From the NCBI RefSeq assembly GCF_027359575.1, contig NZ_CP114784.1, positions 929,819 through 993,818 on the forward strand: DNA of 64,000 nt, read 5' to 3'. Source of the DNA: Prochlorococcus marinus str. MIT 0917 (GTDB lineage Bacteria; Cyanobacteriota; Cyanobacteriia; PCC-6307; Cyanobiaceae). This document shows, one piece after another, positions 1 to 5,975 of this stretch (positions within the stretch are counted from its first letter, which is position 1; every line of letters begins with the position of its first letter). The position numbers and the translations under genes are program-made. The notes beneath the pieces are model-generated. The model had not been told where the DNA came from. It made no database searches and was given only the letters and a program-made list of their open reading frames with translations.

Positions 1-1
1 C

Positions 2-436
2 ACTCTCGCTCCAATACATGTACAAAAACGTCGTCAAACTGAAGCGGAAGAATATGGCATGTATCTCTTGAGTCAAATGGGAGTAGATTCACATGCCAAA
101 AAATACCCAAGTCAACTTAGCGGAGGAGAACAACAGCGAGTAGCCATAGCCAGAGCTTTAGCCTTAAAGCCTGAGTTACTTTTATTCGATGAGCCCACTA
201 GTGCTCTAGACCCAGAGCGAATCAATGAAGTACTCGATGCAATGAGAAGACTTGCTGAGCAAGGAATGACAATGGTTGTCGTAACACATGAAATTGGTTT
301 TGCAAAAGACGTAAGCGATCAAGTTTTATTTATGGATTCAGGTAAAGTCATAGAAACATCTCCTCCAAATATTTTCTTCTCTCATGCTAGGCATGAGAGA
401 AGTAGAAAATTTCTTAATCAACTTGATAAGTACTAG
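2..436 (+). CDS. Amino-acid ABC transporter ATP-binding protein (5' truncated by window edge)
   Basis: This is the C-terminal part of a polar amino-acid ABC transporter ATPase (GlnQ/HisP type), which energises import at the inner membrane. The frame is open from base 2 and reads TLAPIHVQKRRQ before the first internal Met, so the gene begins outside the window. The ABC signature LSGGEQQRVAIARAL, Walker B LLLFDEPTSALDP and the switch histidine in VVVTHEIGF are all visible; Walker A is off the edge. The conserved THEIGFA stretch favours the amino-acid importer subfamily. Substrate cannot be told from the ATPase, and no permease or binding protein follows it. Confidence 0.93.
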   Translation, partial: TLAPIHVQKRRQTEAEEYGMYLLSQMGVDSHAKKYPSQLSGGEQQRVAIARALALKPELLLFDEPTSALDPERINEVLDAMRRLAEQGMTMVVVTHEIGFAKDVSDQVLFMDSGKVIETSPPNIFFSHARHERSRKFLNQLDKY

Positions 437-448
437 TTAACAACAACT

Positions 449-604
449 ATACGTCGATATCCATTTATCAGTTTTATTAGTTTCAAAAACAATTAAATTA
501 GATGAGTAATAGCTAATAAGATATAAAGTATTCAAATCCGCATTTTCACGCTATCCATGTCAAGCATAGATATCTCGTATTGGCTGATAAAAAGTGAGCC
601 TTAA
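449..604 (+). pseudogene. Remnant A: truncated 5' end of an EVE-domain gene
   Basis: Codons 557-604 read MSSIDISYWLIKSEP and then stop. The intact EVE gene at 5502 begins MSTKDISYWLMKSEP. The DNA upstream also matches that gene's leader: a shared TTTTATTARTTTCAAAA stretch and a shared CATTTTC...TATCC just before ATG. I read this as a partial, decayed paralogous copy of leader plus first 15 codons. It sits between the ABC transporter gene and the sdhA-like gene. A functional micro-peptide is possible but less likely. Confidence 0.6.
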
Positions 605-682
605 TGAAGACATAAGGTTAAGAACACTCAACAATTCCTATCCCAACCAAATTAAAACTTTGAATTATTTTAAGGAAAATCA

Positions 683-2440
683 ATGACAAATTATAACCAC
701 ACAACACAAATTTCAAATATTTTGGTAATTGGCTGTGGAGGTGCAGGGTTAAGAGCTGCTATTGAAGTCAAGCTCGCTGGACTTCAAGTATCAGTACTAG
801 GGAAGCGAGCAAAGACAGATTCGCATACTGTTTTAGCTGCAGGAGGAATTAATGCCGCATTTGGAAATGTCGATCAAGAAGATTCTTGGGAACAACATTT
901 TGCAGATACTTATATAGAGGGATATGGAATTGGAGACGTATCACAAATTGAGATAATGGCTAAAGAGTCTCCAATACTTGTTCAAGAAATAGATCAATGG
1001 GGGGCAAATTTTGCAAAATTAAAAAATGGGCTTCTTGATCAAAGATTTTTTGGAGCTCATTCGTATAGAAGAACTTGTTACTCAGGAGATTTCACAGGTT
1101 TATCAATTTTAAAAACACTTCTTAAGAAAGCAAAGTCTTTAAATATTCCAATTTATGACAACCAATACGTCACTGAGATTCTTATAAGAGATGACATTTG
1201 CTTTGGAGCCATGTCATTCGATACAAGTACAGCTGAAAGGACAGTGCATTTAGCTGATGCTGTTATTCTTTGCACAGGAGGGCATACAAAAATATGGAAA
1301 AGAAGTTCCTCTAGAAAAAAAGAAAATACAGGAGACGGCTTGTACTTAAGTCTCAAAGCAGGTTGCCAATTAAGAGATATGGAAATGGTTCAATTTCACC
1401 CCTCAGGAATGCTTCTCCCAGAGGAGATTGCAGGAACATTAGTCACAGAAGCAGTTCGAGGGGAAGGAGGAAAACTTATAAATAACCAAGGAGAACGATT
1501 CATGGTTAATTATGATAAAGAGAGAATGGAGCTTTCAACTAGAGATAGAGTTGCCATAGCGAATTACACAGAAATAGCCGAAGGGCGAGGCACCCCTAAT
1601 GGAGGTGTGTATCTGGATATAAGTCATATGAGTAAAGATTTTATAATGCAAAAAATACCAAGTATTTACAGGCAATTTTTAGATACACAAATGCTAGACA
1701 TCTCAAAAGAGCCAATGGAAGTAGCTCCAACAGCACACTATTCAATGGGAGGAATTGTAATAAGTCCTGAAGAGCATTGCACATCAGTCAGAGGTTTGTA
1801 TGCCGCAGGAGAAGTGGCTGGTGGATTACATGGTGCAAATCGTCTAGGAGGCAATTCTCTTGCAGAAATTTTAATTTTCGGGAAGAGGGCTGGAATGGCT
1901 AGTATTAATTATTCAAACCAATTAAATTCACAAGTAAGATCTGATATTTCCATACAAAATGCTCATGACCATATCAATAAATTCATAAATAAAGGTACAG
2001 AATTAGCAAAGCCATTACAACATGAATTAAGTAGCGTCATGTGGAAGCATTGTGGAGTGATTAAAGATAAAAACTTATTAGAGTCAGGACTAAAAAAAAT
2101 TATAGACATCAAAAATATTATTAAAGACGTTGATGTTAGAATTGACTATCATAGTTGTGATGATCTTGTTCAGGTATTTGATTTAGAAGCATCAGTAATT
2201 TCTGCTGAAGCCACAATCCTATCTGCGTTAACCAGACAAGAAAGTAGAGGTTCGCATCAAAGGAGTGACTATAAGGAATTAAACACTAGTGATAATTGCA
2301 ATTATCACGTCAAGTTGAACAAACAGACTTTTGAGTTAGAAATATCAAAACAACATATTCCTACATTAAGAAAGGATCTCCAAAATATTGTCAAAAAAAC
2401 AAGCAAAGTTATTAATCTCAAAAATAAATTACTTGAATAG
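683..2440 (+). CDS. sdhA: Succinate dehydrogenase/fumarate reductase flavoprotein-like protein
   Basis: FAD-dependent dehydrogenase of the SdhA/FrdA/L-aspartate oxidase superfamily, 585 residues, close to SdhA length. The N-terminal dinucleotide fold has GCGGAG (residues 17-22). His48 in DSHTVLAAGG occupies the place of the covalent FAD histidine of SdhA/FrdA, which argues against L-aspartate oxidase. Active-site motifs QFHPSGM, STRDRVA, HYSMGG and GANRLGGNS are all kept. The ATG follows an AGGA ribosome site. It would oxidise succinate or reduce fumarate at the membrane with an iron-sulfur partner, but no sdhB is next to it here. Fumarase lies 35 kb away. The exact in vivo direction is unknown. 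Confidence 0.85.
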   Translation: MTNYNHTTQISNILVIGCGGAGLRAAIEVKLAGLQVSVLGKRAKTDSHTVLAAGGINAAFGNVDQEDSWEQHFADTYIEGYGIGDVSQIEIMAKESPILVQEIDQWGANFAKLKNGLLDQRFFGAHSYRRTCYSGDFTGLSILKTLLKKAKSLNIPIYDNQYVTEILIRDDICFGAMSFDTSTAERTVHLADAVILCTGGHTKIWKRSSSRKKENTGDGLYLSLKAGCQLRDMEMVQFHPSGMLLPEEIAGTLVTEAVRGEGGKLINNQGERFMVNYDKERMELSTRDRVAIANYTEIAEGRGTPNGGVYLDISHMSKDFIMQKIPSIYRQFLDTQMLDISKEPMEVAPTAHYSMGGIVISPEEHCTSVRGLYAAGEVAGGLHGANRLGGNSLAEILIFGKRAGMASINYSNQLNSQVRSDISIQNAHDHINKFINKGTELAKPLQHELSSVMWKHCGVIKDKNLLESGLKKIIDIKNIIKDVDVRIDYHSCDDLVQVFDLEASVISAEATILSALTRQESRGSHQRSDYKELNTSDNCNYHVKLNKQTFELEISKQHIPTLRKDLQNIVKKTSKVINLKNKLLE

Positions 2441-2477
2441 TCATATTTAATTGATTGGTGACTACTAGGAAAACCTT

Positions 2478-2618
2478 TTTGAAATAGAACAAAAAATGAG
2501 GGTGAGAATGTCAAGCAATCCACACAACAGCCACACATCGCAATGACGCTGATATCCCTTGCTAGCAATGGGAATCAACTACTGGCTAATGAAAAGCAAG
2601 CCTTCATTGACTGCCTGA
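2478..2618 (+). pseudogene. Remnant C: leader plus first codons of an EVE-like gene
   Basis: From 2568 the sequence reads MGINYWLMKSKPSLTA and stops at 2616-2618; YWLMKS matches the start of the EVE gene at 5502. The preceding 90 bases, beginning TTGAAATAGA and containing GGTGAGAATGT and CACATCGCAATGACGCT, resemble the sequence at 3256-3335. This is therefore a second truncated copy carrying its own leader type, directly downstream of the sdhA-like gene. No function is evident. Confidence 0.55.
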
Positions 2619-2668
2619 GATCTCAAGGAATCGTTATTTCTTGTTCGAACTTTATTCGAACTTTTTCC

Positions 2669-2881
2669 ATGACAAGCAGACCAGAAATATTAGATGAGAT
2701 CATGTTTTACATCCTTGAATGAGCTAATTGCGCAGAAAACACAGACAAATACTTTGAGCATGTTCTCGACTACTGCAAAAAGGATTATCAACAAGCTTTT
2801 TTAAAAAGAAAAATTAGATCAAATTCTATTCACTACAGGAATCAATTCCAGCGAAAAACTAATAATAAATATTCGATTTAA
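2669..2881 (+). pseudogene. Possible broken 70-codon gene with an in-frame TGA
   Basis: The frame from ATG 2669 reads MTSRPEILDEIMFYILE, meets TGA at 2720-2722, then continues in the same frame as ANCAENTDKYFEHVLDYC and on to TAA at 2879-2881. Both halves have ordinary charged, helical protein composition, so a single nonsense change in a small acidic/basic protein is a natural reading. I do not recognise the family. It could also be two chance reading frames. Confidence 0.35.
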
Positions 2882-2905
2882 TTCACTCAAGAAATATCTA
2901 TAATT

Positions 2906-3094
2906 TTATGCTGCGATATTTTCTCTCAAACCTCTATCCCTACTCCCTTTAAACCATACAGGCCTTGGGAGAAGTTCATTCACTGGATACAAATGACCGG
3001 TCACTGAATAAGGCTTCTCAAGGGTTGAAGCTTCTGCAAGAACTGCTTTATATTCCTCCATTGAACGAACATTTCGAGAAGATTTAGAAGTCAT
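2906..3094 (-). CDS. Small hypothetical protein (62 aa)
   Basis: Family not recognised. The 62-residue product has an ATG start, a charged N-terminal half (MEEYKAVLAEASTLEKP) and a C-terminal half rich in Pro, Arg and Gly (LLPRPVWFKGSRDRG). No signal peptide or membrane segment is seen. It is isolated among gene fragments, with a small ORF starting on the other strand at 3118. Its composition is protein-like and unlike a chance frame, so I call it a probable lineage-specific gene. Confidence 0.5.
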   Translation of the reverse strand: MTSKSSRNVRSMEEYKAVLAEASTLEKPYSVTGHLYPVNELLPRPVWFKGSRDRGLRENIAA

Positions 3095-3117
3095 AGTTCT
3101 TGGCTGTTTTATAGATT

Positions 3118-3255
3118 ATGAGCCAACAATCAGATGATGACGTTCAGAGCGAGCTTTTCCCAAAGAATATGTGGAAGATCAGTTTTTCTACGATGCTTAA
3201 ATTTGGAGATTTTCTATCAATTGCGATCTGTGCATTATTAGTAATAGAAGCCTGA
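3118..3255 (+). CDS. Possible 45-residue membrane micro-protein
   Basis: An open frame of 45 codons starts at ATG 3118 with an acidic start (MSQQSDDDVQSELFPKN) and ends in a hydrophobic stretch, FLSIAICALLVIEA. That layout suits a single-span small protein. There is no clear ribosome site before the ATG, and I do not recognise the family. It ends exactly where the EVE-like leader repeat (3256) begins. It could be a real lineage-specific peptide or chance. Confidence 0.3.
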   Translation: MSQQSDDDVQSELFPKNMWKISFSTMLKFGDFLSIAICALLVIEA

Positions 3256-3362
3256 TTGAAATAGAGTAAAGGAATAGTGGTGAGAATGTTAAACCATCCC
3301 ACACCATCCAAACATTGCAATATCGCTAAGATCCCATGGCAACAAAGGATATTAACTATTGT
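3256..3362 (+). repeat. Remnant D: EVE-like leader repeat and start codons
   Basis: The leader TTGAAATAGAGTAAAGG...GGTGAGAATGTTAAACCATCC aligns with 2478-2560. It is followed by ATG at 3336 reading MATKDINY, against MSTKDISY of the intact EVE gene. Similarity ends at about 3362, inside the 3' end of the oxygenase gene on the other strand, whose stop codon is at 3356-3358. The repeat thus abuts and slightly overlaps a gene terminus. Confidence 0.6.
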
Positions 3363-5035
3363 CTACGTCCAAATAACATAGTGACATTGATTCGGCGATT
3401 CTCATATCCTTCTTTGAATTCATAACTATCAGTTTCATGAAATAAATTTGAATTAAAGATAACAGCACGGTTTTCGCTATAAGGAATCACTTTTGTATTA
3501 CCTTTACTTTTTTTGAGTTCTTCGAGAATTTTTGTTTTATCGTTGGTGTTATTGTAAATTTGAAAATCCCATTCCTTTGGAGCTTCTACGTCGTAGACGA
3601 TTAATCCACCAGACTTTTTGTTTAAGTTAGCTTCTTTAGGTGTAATCCAAAAGTTAACATTTACTGCTGCAAAATCTGCGTGAACATTGATACCTTTAAT
3701 AGATGACTTGTAATCTTTTGAGCGACTATCGTATTTGAAAGCCCATATGTGGTTTATAGGATAATCTTTAAATATTTGTGGGAATTTCTTTCTAAGCTCA
3801 TCTGCTATTTGAAAAATCAAAGGATTAGCAAAACCATCTCTGAGGAATGTGCCAAGGTATCCATTATTTTTGACATTAAACCAAATTGTACTTTCCAGTA
3901 AGAATTTTCGAAGGGATTCTAATGCTTGAGGACTTAAGAAATTATCAATGTAAGTCAACCCAAACTCATGATCACAATAAGCATTTGTAATTTTTTCAAT
4001 ATTTAAGGAATCATTTATTGCTTCTTTTTCTAATCTAGGTGCTGCCACTCTATGAATTAAACAATTATAGCTACCTTCTAGAATGCTTTGATGTTTGTTA
4101 TTTAAAGGAATTAGTTTGGTTTTAGATGGCCAATCAATCTCAGAGGCAACGTTTTTATATAGAATAGCAAGATCAGTAAATTTTTTAGTCTCATAACCTT
4201 GCGATGCTAAATATTCAAATTGTTCAATATCATGTTGAATTTTCGCCTCACTAATTATTTTAAATCTTGTGTAACCTGATTTTTTGTTCTTTTGTTCATT
4301 AAGTAACCGTGCACTTTCTGCCAAATATTCTAGAGATAAGTCTGGATTTCCTTTTTGAAGATGCATTAAGCCTAAAAGTTCATTTGCTTTTGCAAAATCA
4401 GGTTTAATTTCAATTGCTTTTTGAATTGATCTTTCTGCTTCTTTTGATTTATCAAGATCTCTCAATATGTTTCCCAGATTGTAATGAGCTTGAGCGAAAT
4501 TAGGATTAATTTGAATTGCTTTACGAGTAGATAATTCTGCTTCTTGTAATTTGCCAAGTTCTTTTAAGACGATTCCCAGATTATAATGAGCATCAGCGCA
4601 ATCAGGATTGATTTTAATTGCTTTTCGGTATGACAATACTGCTTCTTGTAATTTGCCAAGTTCTTTTAATATGATTCCAAGATTGTAATGAGCATCAACG
4701 TAATCAGGATTAATTTTAATTGCTTTTCGGTATAACAATTCTGCTTCTTGTAAGTTGCCAATATCATATAAAATTCCTGCATAATTAGAAAAAGCCATGG
4801 GATCTTTAAACCCTTGATTTATAAAATATTGATAAAACTTTGCTGCCTCTGAAGCATTTCCTTGTGAATGGAACTTCAATGCTTGGTTGATTATTTGATC
4901 TTTAGAAGGCTTAGAAGTAACATTAGTAGTAATAGTAATATTTTCTTTAATTTTTTCTAAAGAGAATGGAATAGTAAATATTTTTATATCATTGAATTTA
5001 TTTTTTCTTTGTTCTTGTTTATCTGATTTTTCCAT
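3356..5035 (-). CDS. TPR-repeat protein with C-terminal 2OG-Fe(II) oxygenase-like domain
   Basis: A 559-residue fusion. Residues from about 45 to 250 form tandem TPR units with the repeated YNLGIILKELGKLQEAVLSY pattern, near-identical between copies. After a linker, the C-terminal 200 residues look like a double-stranded beta-helix oxygenase: His452 and Asp454 in NVHADFAAVN, distal His533 in LFHETDSY and Arg547/548 in NRRINVTM fit the HxD...H...R pattern of iron- and 2-oxoglutarate-dependent hydroxylases. No signal peptide is seen. The TPR part probably binds a protein target that the oxygenase modifies; the substrate is unknown. It lies among EVE-like gene fragments, which suggests an accessory origin. 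Confidence 0.78.
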   Translation of the reverse strand: MEKSDKQEQRKNKFNDIKIFTIPFSLEKIKENITITTNVTSKPSKDQIINQALKFHSQGNASEAAKFYQYFINQGFKDPMAFSNYAGILYDIGNLQEAELLYRKAIKINPDYVDAHYNLGIILKELGKLQEAVLSYRKAIKINPDCADAHYNLGIVLKELGKLQEAELSTRKAIQINPNFAQAHYNLGNILRDLDKSKEAERSIQKAIEIKPDFAKANELLGLMHLQKGNPDLSLEYLAESARLLNEQKNKKSGYTRFKIISEAKIQHDIEQFEYLASQGYETKKFTDLAILYKNVASEIDWPSKTKLIPLNNKHQSILEGSYNCLIHRVAAPRLEKEAINDSLNIEKITNAYCDHEFGLTYIDNFLSPQALESLRKFLLESTIWFNVKNNGYLGTFLRDGFANPLIFQIADELRKKFPQIFKDYPINHIWAFKYDSRSKDYKSSIKGINVHADFAAVNVNFWITPKEANLNKKSGGLIVYDVEAPKEWDFQIYNNTNDKTKILEELKKSKGNTKVIPYSENRAVIFNSNLFHETDSYEFKEGYENRRINVTMLFGRRQ

Positions 5036-5501
5036 ATATTTTATTACTTCTAAAGAAACAATAGAAAAGTACAGAGATATATCATATCTACAGGATCAAG
5101 ATCCATTGAAGATTTCTTCTTAAAGTTTTGAGACTATAACGCCTCAAATGCTGACTTTATCTATTGAGCCATAACTCGCCATGATTATAGAGAAAGAAGC
5201 ATTTACACAACGCCACAAAAAACAAGTCATAGATACAACTTACCTTGAGTTATCCATACGAATGGGTCTTAGAACACGTTTCTGTACACGGATTGGACAG
5301 GAGTTGGGATGCAAAACAGGTGTTTTCTTCATCATCTTCGGCTCGATAAGAATCGGATTCAAGCCATCTAAATATTTATAAATCGATGTCTAGCGATCGG
5401 TTTTATTAATTTCAAAAGTTAGGTAATCTTGGAAGAGGTTTGGATCCCTAATCCAAGAGTTATCCAAACTTTATCCAAACCAGACATTTTCGACAATATC
5501 C
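5036..5501. other. Intergenic region between the oxygenase gene and the EVE gene
   Basis: About 465 bases lie between two divergent genes. The only sizeable frame is 5181-5381 on the plus strand (66 codons, start MIIEKEAFTQRHKKQ). It has no family resemblance and no clear ribosome site, so I do not call it a gene. The last 75 bases hold nested inverted repeats just before the EVE start. Bases 5380-5415 resemble the leader of remnant A at 449-490. Confidence 0.4.
5427..5481. repeat. Nested inverted repeats upstream of the EVE gene
   Basis: GGTTTGGAT (5437-5445) is a perfect inverted match to ATCCAAACC (5473-5481). TCTTGGA (5427-5433) is inverted at TCCAAGA (5452-5458). TATCCAAAC also occurs twice in direct orientation (5461-5469 and 5472-5480). 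The cluster ends 20 bases before the ATG, a position suited to an operator or an mRNA leader structure. No regulator is identified. Confidence 0.5.
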
Positions 5502-5975
5502 ATGTCAACCAAAGATATCTCTTATTGGCTAATGAAAAGTGAGCCAGATGCTTACAGTATTAAAGATTTACAAACAGAAGAAGAGACTCTCTGGGATGGA
5601 ATTCGAAATTATCAAGCTAGAAACTTTATGAGGTCAATGAAAATTGGTGATCAGGCTTTTTTTTATCATTCCAATACTAAGCCCCCTGGAATAGTTGGTC
5701 TAATGGAAATTATTGAGACCAACTTAATCGACCCATTTCAGTTTGATGAAAGTTCAAAGTACTTTGATAAAAAAGCAAAAAGAGAAAACCCTCGTTGGGA
5801 TTGTGTGAAGACTAAATACATCTGTGAATTTAAAAATATGATTACGTTAAAGGAGCTATCTGAAACTTATACGTCTGAAGAGCTAACTCTAGTTCGGAAA
5901 GGGAACAGGCTGTCAATCATGCCAATTAATAAAAATATCGCTTTAGAACTTCTTAAAAAGCTCAAGAAAAATTAA
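5502..5975 (+). CDS. EVE-domain protein (thymocyte nuclear protein 1-like)
   Basis: A single EVE domain fills the 157-residue product: ISYWLMKSEPDAYSI at the N-terminus, LWDGIRNYQARNFMR at about 30-44, and the GDQAFFYHSNTKPPGIVGLM core strand at about 49-68. EVE folds are PUA-like and bind modified bases or RNA. In bacteria they occur alone, as here, or fused to restriction or other nucleic-acid enzymes. It converges on the DUF2811 gene, with stop codons touching. Three truncated copies of its 5' end lie upstream in the window. Function in the cell is not established. Confidence 0.88.
   Translation: MSTKDISYWLMKSEPDAYSIKDLQTEEETLWDGIRNYQARNFMRSMKIGDQAFFYHSNTKPPGIVGLMEIIETNLIDPFQFDESSKYFDKKAKRENPRWDCVKTKYICEFKNMITLKELSETYTSEELTLVRKGNRLSIMPINKNIALELLKKLKKN

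Follow-up and report, generated by a model that had tools for sequence, protein, structure and literature searches.

Integration at the 5' end of a gene by means of a tyrosine recombinase is known from the dusA islands and prophages, as described in the excerpted parts of Farrugia et al. (2015; PMC4482086), and these dusA-specific islands are the nearest precedent for the locus described here. Within Prochlorococcus, the tycheposons (Hackl et al., 2023) are bordered by one of seven tRNA genes according to excerpts of PMC10872708 and PMC10187409, and the excerpted text of Flamholz et al. (2023; PMC10187409) describes an element in variable islands of both Prochlorococcus and Synechococcus; its divergent tyrosine recombinase, which often has a small serine recombinase nearby, keeps Arg212, and tRNA-Phe and tRNA-Cys are its proposed sites. 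The present locus lies in Prochlorococcus marinus str. MIT 0917, in a stretch of 64,000 nucleotides that was analyzed as a whole and is called the window (assembly GCF_027359575.1, contig NZ_CP114784.1, positions 929,819 to 993,818), where three truncated starts of the gene for an EVE-domain protein precede the intact gene. With high probability, a family of integrative elements uses the 5' end of the EVE gene as its attachment site (attB) and has left the truncated starts as scars of that site.

Like the dusA islands, the EVE elements supply the 5' end of their target, have attachment sites in direct repeat and carry variable cargo; judged by sequence comparison alone, they integrate in the 5' end of a protein gene and provide a replacement start, as the dusA type does. 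Unlike those islands, which have only proteobacterial lineages as hosts in the excerpted text (PMC4482086), they target EVE and not dusA, dusB or dusC, their scars form arrays (five in genome G008, and nine start-like matches between integrase and EVE in G104), many of their segments lack an integrase, and pairs of arm repeats tell element from host. With the tycheposons, as far as the excerpts describe these, they share the nature of cargo-carrying Prochlorococcus integrative elements with a tyrosine recombinase and nitrogen-related cargo, but they sit at the EVE 5' end instead of a tRNA gene and their junctions fall in EVE codons. Attachment to a tRNA was rejected, as no tRNA gene was found in the nine loci scanned, which include stretches of the G004 and G030 arrays. 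The EVE attachment site was not met in the literature searched, a scope that included Prochlorococcus together with the EVE domain or DUF55 and left Hackl et al. (2023) outside.

We propose that such an element, in its circular form, would have an attP site in which a right arm pair is followed by a leader that runs into an EVE ATG and the first codons; next would come the core TGGCTAATGAA, a few tens of nucleotides and a left arm pair, with the integrase gene behind it. Crossover at the core would split the host gene, leaving its old leader and first ~12 codons upstream as attL, and the gene body would join the leader and start of the element (attR), whereby EVE would stay intact under the newcomer's leader. 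The site regenerated in this way would allow repeated insertions to stack elements upstream of EVE, and as integrases and ends decay or are deleted, cargo would remain between truncated starts. Scars, a common breakpoint, arm pairs, the position of the integrase, arm matching and leader swapping can all be read from the sequences compared. We infer further that the EVE-clade integrase performs the insertion, that circular forms exist and that the leader serves as a promoter. In the window, the features that bear on this proposal are as follows (c1 to c3, truncated copies).

449..600, + strand: c1, EVE leader and start (ATG 557; MSSIDISYWLIKSEP, then TAA; leader type C)
581-591, + strand: core of c1, TGGCTGATAAA, carrying core mutations
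2447..2622, + strand: c2, leader and EVE start (ATG 2568, MGINYWLMKSKP; core TGGCTAATGAA at 2583-2593)
2641..2661, + strand: left arm-repeat pair TTGTTCGAACT-TTATTCGAAC after the core of c2, left-end remnant of an integrase-less element
3208..3362, + strand: c3, leader and EVE start (ATG 3336, MATKDINYC, unrelated DNA after), cut within the core past TATTG (~3361)
5370..5501, + strand: live EVE leader, type C, with 91% identity to an internal scar of G004 (170 bp)
5460..5480, + strand: right arm-repeat pair TTATCCAAACT-TTATCCAAAC
5502..5975, + strand: intact EVE gene, 157 amino acids (PF01878, E 3e-53)
5526..5536, + strand: core TGGCTAATGAA, the crossover region (W9, L10, M11 and two bases of K12)

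The three truncated starts pointed out in the first-pass annotation are all present, upstream of the intact gene and on the same strand. Searching the whole 1.92-Mb genome (labeled G000 in the strain comparisons) with the intact start recovered c1 at E 2.9e-14, and the c3 segment as query recovered c2 at E 1.3e-11; outside the locus, no place in these searches did better than E 0.049. These values rule out chance similarity of the starts, and the absence of further genome copies at comparable scores rules out a dispersed repeat family. Compared directly, c2 and the intact start match weakly (E 0.6). As the same annotation had stated, the homology extends into the leaders, and those of c2 and c3 are each other's best match within the G000 genome. 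Among 33 other strains, the best match of both c2 (80% over 158 bp, E 5e-36) and c3 (88% over 155 bp, E 8e-52) is an intact EVE start. The nearest relative of c1 is G000's own EVE start (84% over 74 bp), and c1 alone is therefore undecided between duplication and insertion. The mechanism is not deducible from the window by itself.

For comparison, 41 genomes of the genus were sampled, of which 35 have an EVE match and 34, including the window's, were compared (G026, with its gene at a contig end, was left out). Partial starts of at least 50 bits that reach the start codon lie upstream of EVE in 18 of the 34 genomes (29 copies); eight more upstream copies are leader pieces, which brings the genomes with copies to 19, and no inverted or downstream copy was found in this set. 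In G008, five partial copies spaced 1.9-3.1 kb apart stand ahead of the intact gene. Thirty-four of the 37 copies could be anchored on Trp9, and 25 of these keep the gene through TGGCTAATGAA and diverge after it. This core, which sits in the YWLMKSEP motif at codons 9-12, is exact in about 15 of the 25 rows and has one to three changes in the others; the remaining nine anchored rows comprise leader pieces, cut copies (c3 among them) and mis-anchored copies. The leaders 5' of the core can be sorted into distinct types, and many of them have two 11-bp repeats in tandem that change in concert (TTATCCAAACT-TTATCCAAAC or CCATCCACACA-CCATCCACACA, for example). Across strains the interval varies in length, leaders and cargo, and its segments are not found unchanged in unrelated strains. 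In a wider search, 49 of 80 EVE loci were examined for scars: extra start-like matches occur in ten of 22 Prochlorococcus loci (only short, weak ones in L040 and L064), and two of 27 loci of other taxa (L056 and L080) have one weak reverse-strand match each, taken as chance.

In the G004 array, a protein of 529 amino acids that matches PF00589 (E 9.6e-7) and the phrog_1 integrases (E 1.1e-17) directly follows a truncated start and an arm pair. Relatives at E 1e-10 or better were found in 59 of 400 genomes of the family, a count that includes distant ones elsewhere and fragments. Wherever a relative of at least 49% identity shares a contig with EVE, the integrase, whole or broken, lies upstream of EVE on the same strand (14 of 14 genomes, five of them single-contig: G004, G054, G056, G071, G080, G104, G112, G117, G248, G256, G346, G363, G396, and G399), at a start-to-start distance of 5.5-28.6 kb in the 13 genomes that have both starts in sequence. 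This count excludes integrase fragments in several others, such as G083, G124, G131, G240, and G264; integrase and EVE are on separate contigs in G030, G060, G061, G069, and G217 and for the second G256 copy. All 17 relatives of at least 55% identity with upstream sequence are directly preceded by a truncated EVE start and an arm pair: the start is cut at TGGCTAATGAA or a near variant (G056, G061, G399, and the first G030 element) 83-156 bp before the integrase, and a pair of 11-12-bp repeats lies in between. A relative of 39% identity in G118 follows ychF, not EVE. In a tree of 24 integrase rows, the 15 EVE-site rows form one group with a support of 92/91 (L228 being without upstream sequence). 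With its profile match, C-terminal tyrosine and box-II arginine, the associated protein is predicted to belong to the tyrosine recombinase superfamily; Tyr497 and Arg465 are invariant in 12 of 12 EVE-clade integrases, their catalytic roles having been assigned by eye.

In the attP of the phage lambda Int system, the core has direct arm-type repeats on either side, all of them part of the element. The EVE elements would likewise have their core between element-borne direct arm repeats, but differ in having two repeats of 11-12 bp per side, a mimic of a gene start and no sequence match to solved integrases. The left arm pair beside an integrase agrees with the leader of the next EVE start downstream in at least 18 of 21 positions in 15 of 17 cases, and with the leader of its own attL in none of the 17. 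The summed arm score of 331 was not reached in any of 20,000 permutations (mean 232, standard deviation 12.4). For this test the core was taken as the match nearest the integrase, the core of the first G030 element was set by hand, and the G118 integrase was excluded because it is not at EVE. The 17 pairs are not fully independent, since related elements share arm types, and about ten arm sequences are represented. The automatic arm finder misses pairs with indels or more mismatches; the left pair of G399 is plain by eye. Such a pattern is expected from the integration of a circle whose lambda-type attP brings its own arms on either side of the core, and neither duplication nor plain homologous recombination would predict it.

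Leaders and EVE bodies also appear to have separate histories, each insertion swapping leader and start. In the 15 best cross-genus pairs the leaders are 91-95% identical and the EVE body DNA 69-76%, and conversely G363 and G386 share 98% in the bodies and 62% in the leaders (shuffled sequence: mean 57, maximum 64). Leader identity exceeds body identity in 141 of the 169 pairs whose leaders are at least 80% identical; in G002 and G009 the two agree (93 and 96%). The integrases point the same way, with 92-98% identity against 58-72% for the EVE bodies in 12 pairs drawn from two selected groups of four, and 87 against 75% for G363 and G346. Integrases and leaders have thus moved between distant Prochlorococcus lineages. 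As insertion replaces the leader and first codons, the expression of EVE, a member of a family that reads modified bases, may change with each element.

Several observations weigh against site-specific integration at EVE. Firstly, the window's own array retains neither an integrase nor a matched arm pair, and the left arms of c2 do not match the leader of c3. In the arm comparison, G054 fails (12 of 21 positions), G217 is marginal (17 of 21), and three of the 17 comparisons span different contigs (G217, G061, and the second G030 element). No copy of at least 50 bits was found in 15 of the 34 genomes, five with less than 8 kb of upstream sequence and ten with ~15 kb, and the relative in G069 (49% identity, 5' part broken) has no EVE core upstream. 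G396 and G346 reverse the usual relation, with integrases at 69% and EVE bodies at 80%. Two clear inverted scars occur in other clades, one in G071 (in L247) 3 kb upstream of EVE and one in L059 2.2 kb downstream, each comprising leader, arms, EVE start, and core; we read them as later rearrangements, and inverted insertion is equally compatible with them. A free circle or attP was found neither in IMG/VR (two integrase scans and one core-plus-left-end pattern) nor in phage records.

Secondly, the Pfam model misses four full-length integrases (the first of G030, G117, G396, and G363), and sequence search returned no relevant relative with a solved structure. The box-I position of tyrosine recombinases is usually an arginine, and in 12 of 12 EVE-clade integrases the putative box-I position, assigned by eye, is Ser307 (GMSPEE). 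Two relatives at gene 3' ends (ychF and an Fe-S gene) carry Arg there (GARPNE). The box-I serine (L145:5694-7280 around residue 307, alignment A2) is odd for an apparently active family. The Flamholz element, compared here by its excerpted description, resembles the EVE clade in its divergent tyrosine recombinase in variable islands and in the company of a serine recombinase, which is seen in the G030 array, and differs from it in that the EVE clade has a serine, by eye, at the presumed place of Arg212 and uses EVE, not a tRNA, as its site. The G030 gene in question (L168:2590-3138, PF00239) encodes a small serine recombinase and lies 440-988 bp before EVE.

Many segments between scars lack both an integrase and a detectable left arm pair, and the reading of site-specific integration could be extended by assuming that cassettes without integrase are mobilized in trans, in the manner of integrons, by way of a one-sided site of right arms, leader, start, and core. 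Two cassette families, each with the same integrase-less sequence joined at the core to three left sides, favor this extension. To the right of the core, the flavoprotein cassette is 85-87% identical among G000, G005, and G022, and a second cassette is 100% identical among G020, G023, and G001, whereas the left sides agree to 59-64 and 53-60%, respectively, against the shuffled background given above. The same sequence behind differing left sides suggests that core-specific exchange also takes in integrase-less copies. The leader at the right end of the flavoprotein cassette is, moreover, the live EVE leader in G022 and internal in G000, G005, G031, and G004. Still, movement of the cassettes is only one possible cause: deletion between cores, or integrase loss with vertical inheritance, gives the same pictures, and no array was seen to differ from another only by the recent insertion of an integrase-less cassette. 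We regard mobilization in trans as possible but less likely than not. Integrons build mostly one-directional arrays of cassettes at one site and use folded attC sites. The EVE arrays are like them in their mostly one-directional cassettes at one site, parted by remnants of the recombination site, and unlike them in that the repeats are truncated starts of a housekeeping gene, not folded attC sites, and that the integrase lies within the elements. As a speculative picture, Prochlorococcus may possess an integron-like system in which a lambda-type integrase inserts self-coding elements and, in trans, integrase-less cassettes at a housekeeping gene's start codons, the promoter of the newcomer taking over and the arm-repeat type setting specificity.

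Homologous recombination between strains at EVE and its flanks might instead swap whole islands, the truncated starts being one-sided by-products that require no recombinase. Exchange in the flanks probably does shuffle islands as well, and some integrase-less junctions could stem from recombination or deletion between core copies. This explanation, however, predicts no fixed 11-bp core, no integrase at the 17 of 17 left ends tested, and no arms that match the next leader yet never their own, and we consider it improbable as an account of the scars. Least probable is local duplication of the EVE start by slippage or unequal crossing-over with subsequent decay and chance insertion of genes between the copies, which would suit the direct, local, and truncated nature of all window copies and the closeness of c1 to its own start, but which is contradicted by c2 and c3 being nearer to live starts of other strains than to their own gene, by the one common breakpoint, by integrase and arm pairs at the breakpoints together with the arm matching, and by leaders that move between genera and disagree with the bodies that they precede. 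The first-pass annotation had considered repeated duplication with decay, or else a cassette anchored for recombination by its 5' end, possibly with accessory genes between the copies. Duplication is not borne out, given that the leaders of c2 and c3 are live in other strains, that most core-reaching copies share one breakpoint and that integrase genes and repeat pairs mark the breakpoints of better-preserved arrays; decay is real, c3 being cut in its core and c1 having core mutations; and the anchor has taken shape as site-specific integration with its core inside EVE codons 9-12.

Under site-specific integration at EVE, the window is an integrase-less relic with three scars, the cargo of which comprises a flavoprotein, small open reading frames (ORFs) and a TPR protein. 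The neighboring features are the following.

L272:9084-9270 (outside the window): decayed EVE start and transporter operon, the start ~3.6 kb upstream of the window's left edge
1..436, + strand: 3' part of an ABC transporter ATPase gene (amino-acid type, PF00005), which closes a four-gene operon
683..2440, + strand: cargo 1, SdhA/FrdA/NadB-like flavoprotein, 585 amino acids (PF00890, E 4e-83)
2906..3094, - strand: small ORF, 62 amino acids, in the stretches of 12 strains including the window's
3118..3255, + strand: small ORF, 45 amino acids, adjoining the 62-amino-acid ORF in several strains
3356..5035, - strand: cargo 3, TPR-repeat protein, 559 amino acids (PF00515), with relatives in the stretches of 10 strains including the window's

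We read c1 as a displaced EVE leader and start, an attL-type scar pushed off by the flavoprotein cassette; the sequence to the right of its core is common to G005 and G022, whose leaders differ. The flavoprotein, which is present in the stretches of eight strains including the window's and stands here in a segment without integrase, scores under the NCBIfam cut-offs shown for the sdhA, frdA, and nadB models. Because c2 is best matched by the leader that is live before EVE in G022, it is read as the right end of this cassette, displaced in turn by an element that lost its integrase. By the same argument c3, which is best matched by the leader live in G013, is read as the start brought by the small-ORF cassette, at its right end, and later cut in the core beside the TPR gene. 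The live leader, we infer, derives from the last-inserted element, the first codons of the window's EVE gene being element-derived and its body vertical. This gene is the only EVE match in the G000 genome, and among the loci found its protein is closest to those of uncultured or single-cell Prochlorococcus (top three 84-92% identity). Such scars form a readable record of successive insertions.

The transporter operon is probably an old cassette, bounded upstream, outside the window, by the decayed EVE start. Weak matches (40-43 bits) ~3.6 kb upstream of the transporter ATPase recur at the same place in six strains and in G000; a chance origin was dropped for this reason, and they are read as one shared decayed EVE start. 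A close relative of the ATPase is found in 19 of the 34 stretches, at 318 bp (G039) to 7.4 kb (G003) from EVE, and the modules in between stand in different orders among strains. No close match to it lies within 15 kb upstream of EVE in G001, G002, G004, G008, and G015.

The arrays give a hypervariable island of an abundant ocean phototroph a definite site, a core and a candidate integrase, and they carry nitrite reductase, restriction-modification, Hma defense, transporter, and metal-related genes. Of 147 ORFs of at least 110 amino acids in integrase-bearing arrays, 133 were scanned, and the families considered here are 25 of the 126 Pfam and 25 of the 83 PHROG families matched. Among these are DnaB-like helicases (at least four), PD-(D/E)XK nucleases (at least three), pieces of T7-like RNA polymerases (at least two), and TPR proteins (at least 14); no virion protein (capsid, portal, terminase, or tail) was named among the 25 of 83 PHROG families listed. 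In G363, genes for a type I methyltransferase, specificity and restriction adjoin the integrase, the cargo of G071 includes the HmaABC defense genes, and a photolyase is encoded in the G004 array. ArsJ occurs in G104, and ArsJ with a CobW-type protein in G056. G104 also carries nitrite assimilation cargo between EVE scars (L251:11222-13951), namely a ferredoxin-nitrite reductase and a formate/nitrite-like transporter, the latter under the curated cut-off. Broken genes for T7-like single-subunit RNA polymerases (PF00940, phrog_414) are found in the G004 and G030 arrays (L145:145-1395 and L205:9658-11644), with a related piece in G002.

In the TPR gene of the window, three DNA repeats of 172 nucleotides (4396-4771, 102-nucleotide spacing, 78-81% identical to the first) represent a repeat expansion, and the protein has a weak match (E 2.8e-7) to phrog_1644, a "minor coat protein" family.

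More distant relatives of the integrase lie directly after the 3' ends of an Fe-S assembly gene (PF01521) in G030 (L207:4835-6897) and of ychF (PF06071) in G118 (L266:173-2929), in both cases with a repeat pair preceding the integrase. G000 itself encodes a relative of 475 amino acids and ~30% identity 90 bp past the rpsD 3' end (L208:6777-8902, genome ~1,782,800-1,784,900), with an imperfect arm-like pair and the same layout in G014 and G026, and this element looks like a sister family that targets a gene 3' end. With relatives at the 3' ends of rpsD, the Fe-S gene and ychF, the EVE clade looks like the 5'-end member of a wider set of elements targeting protein genes.

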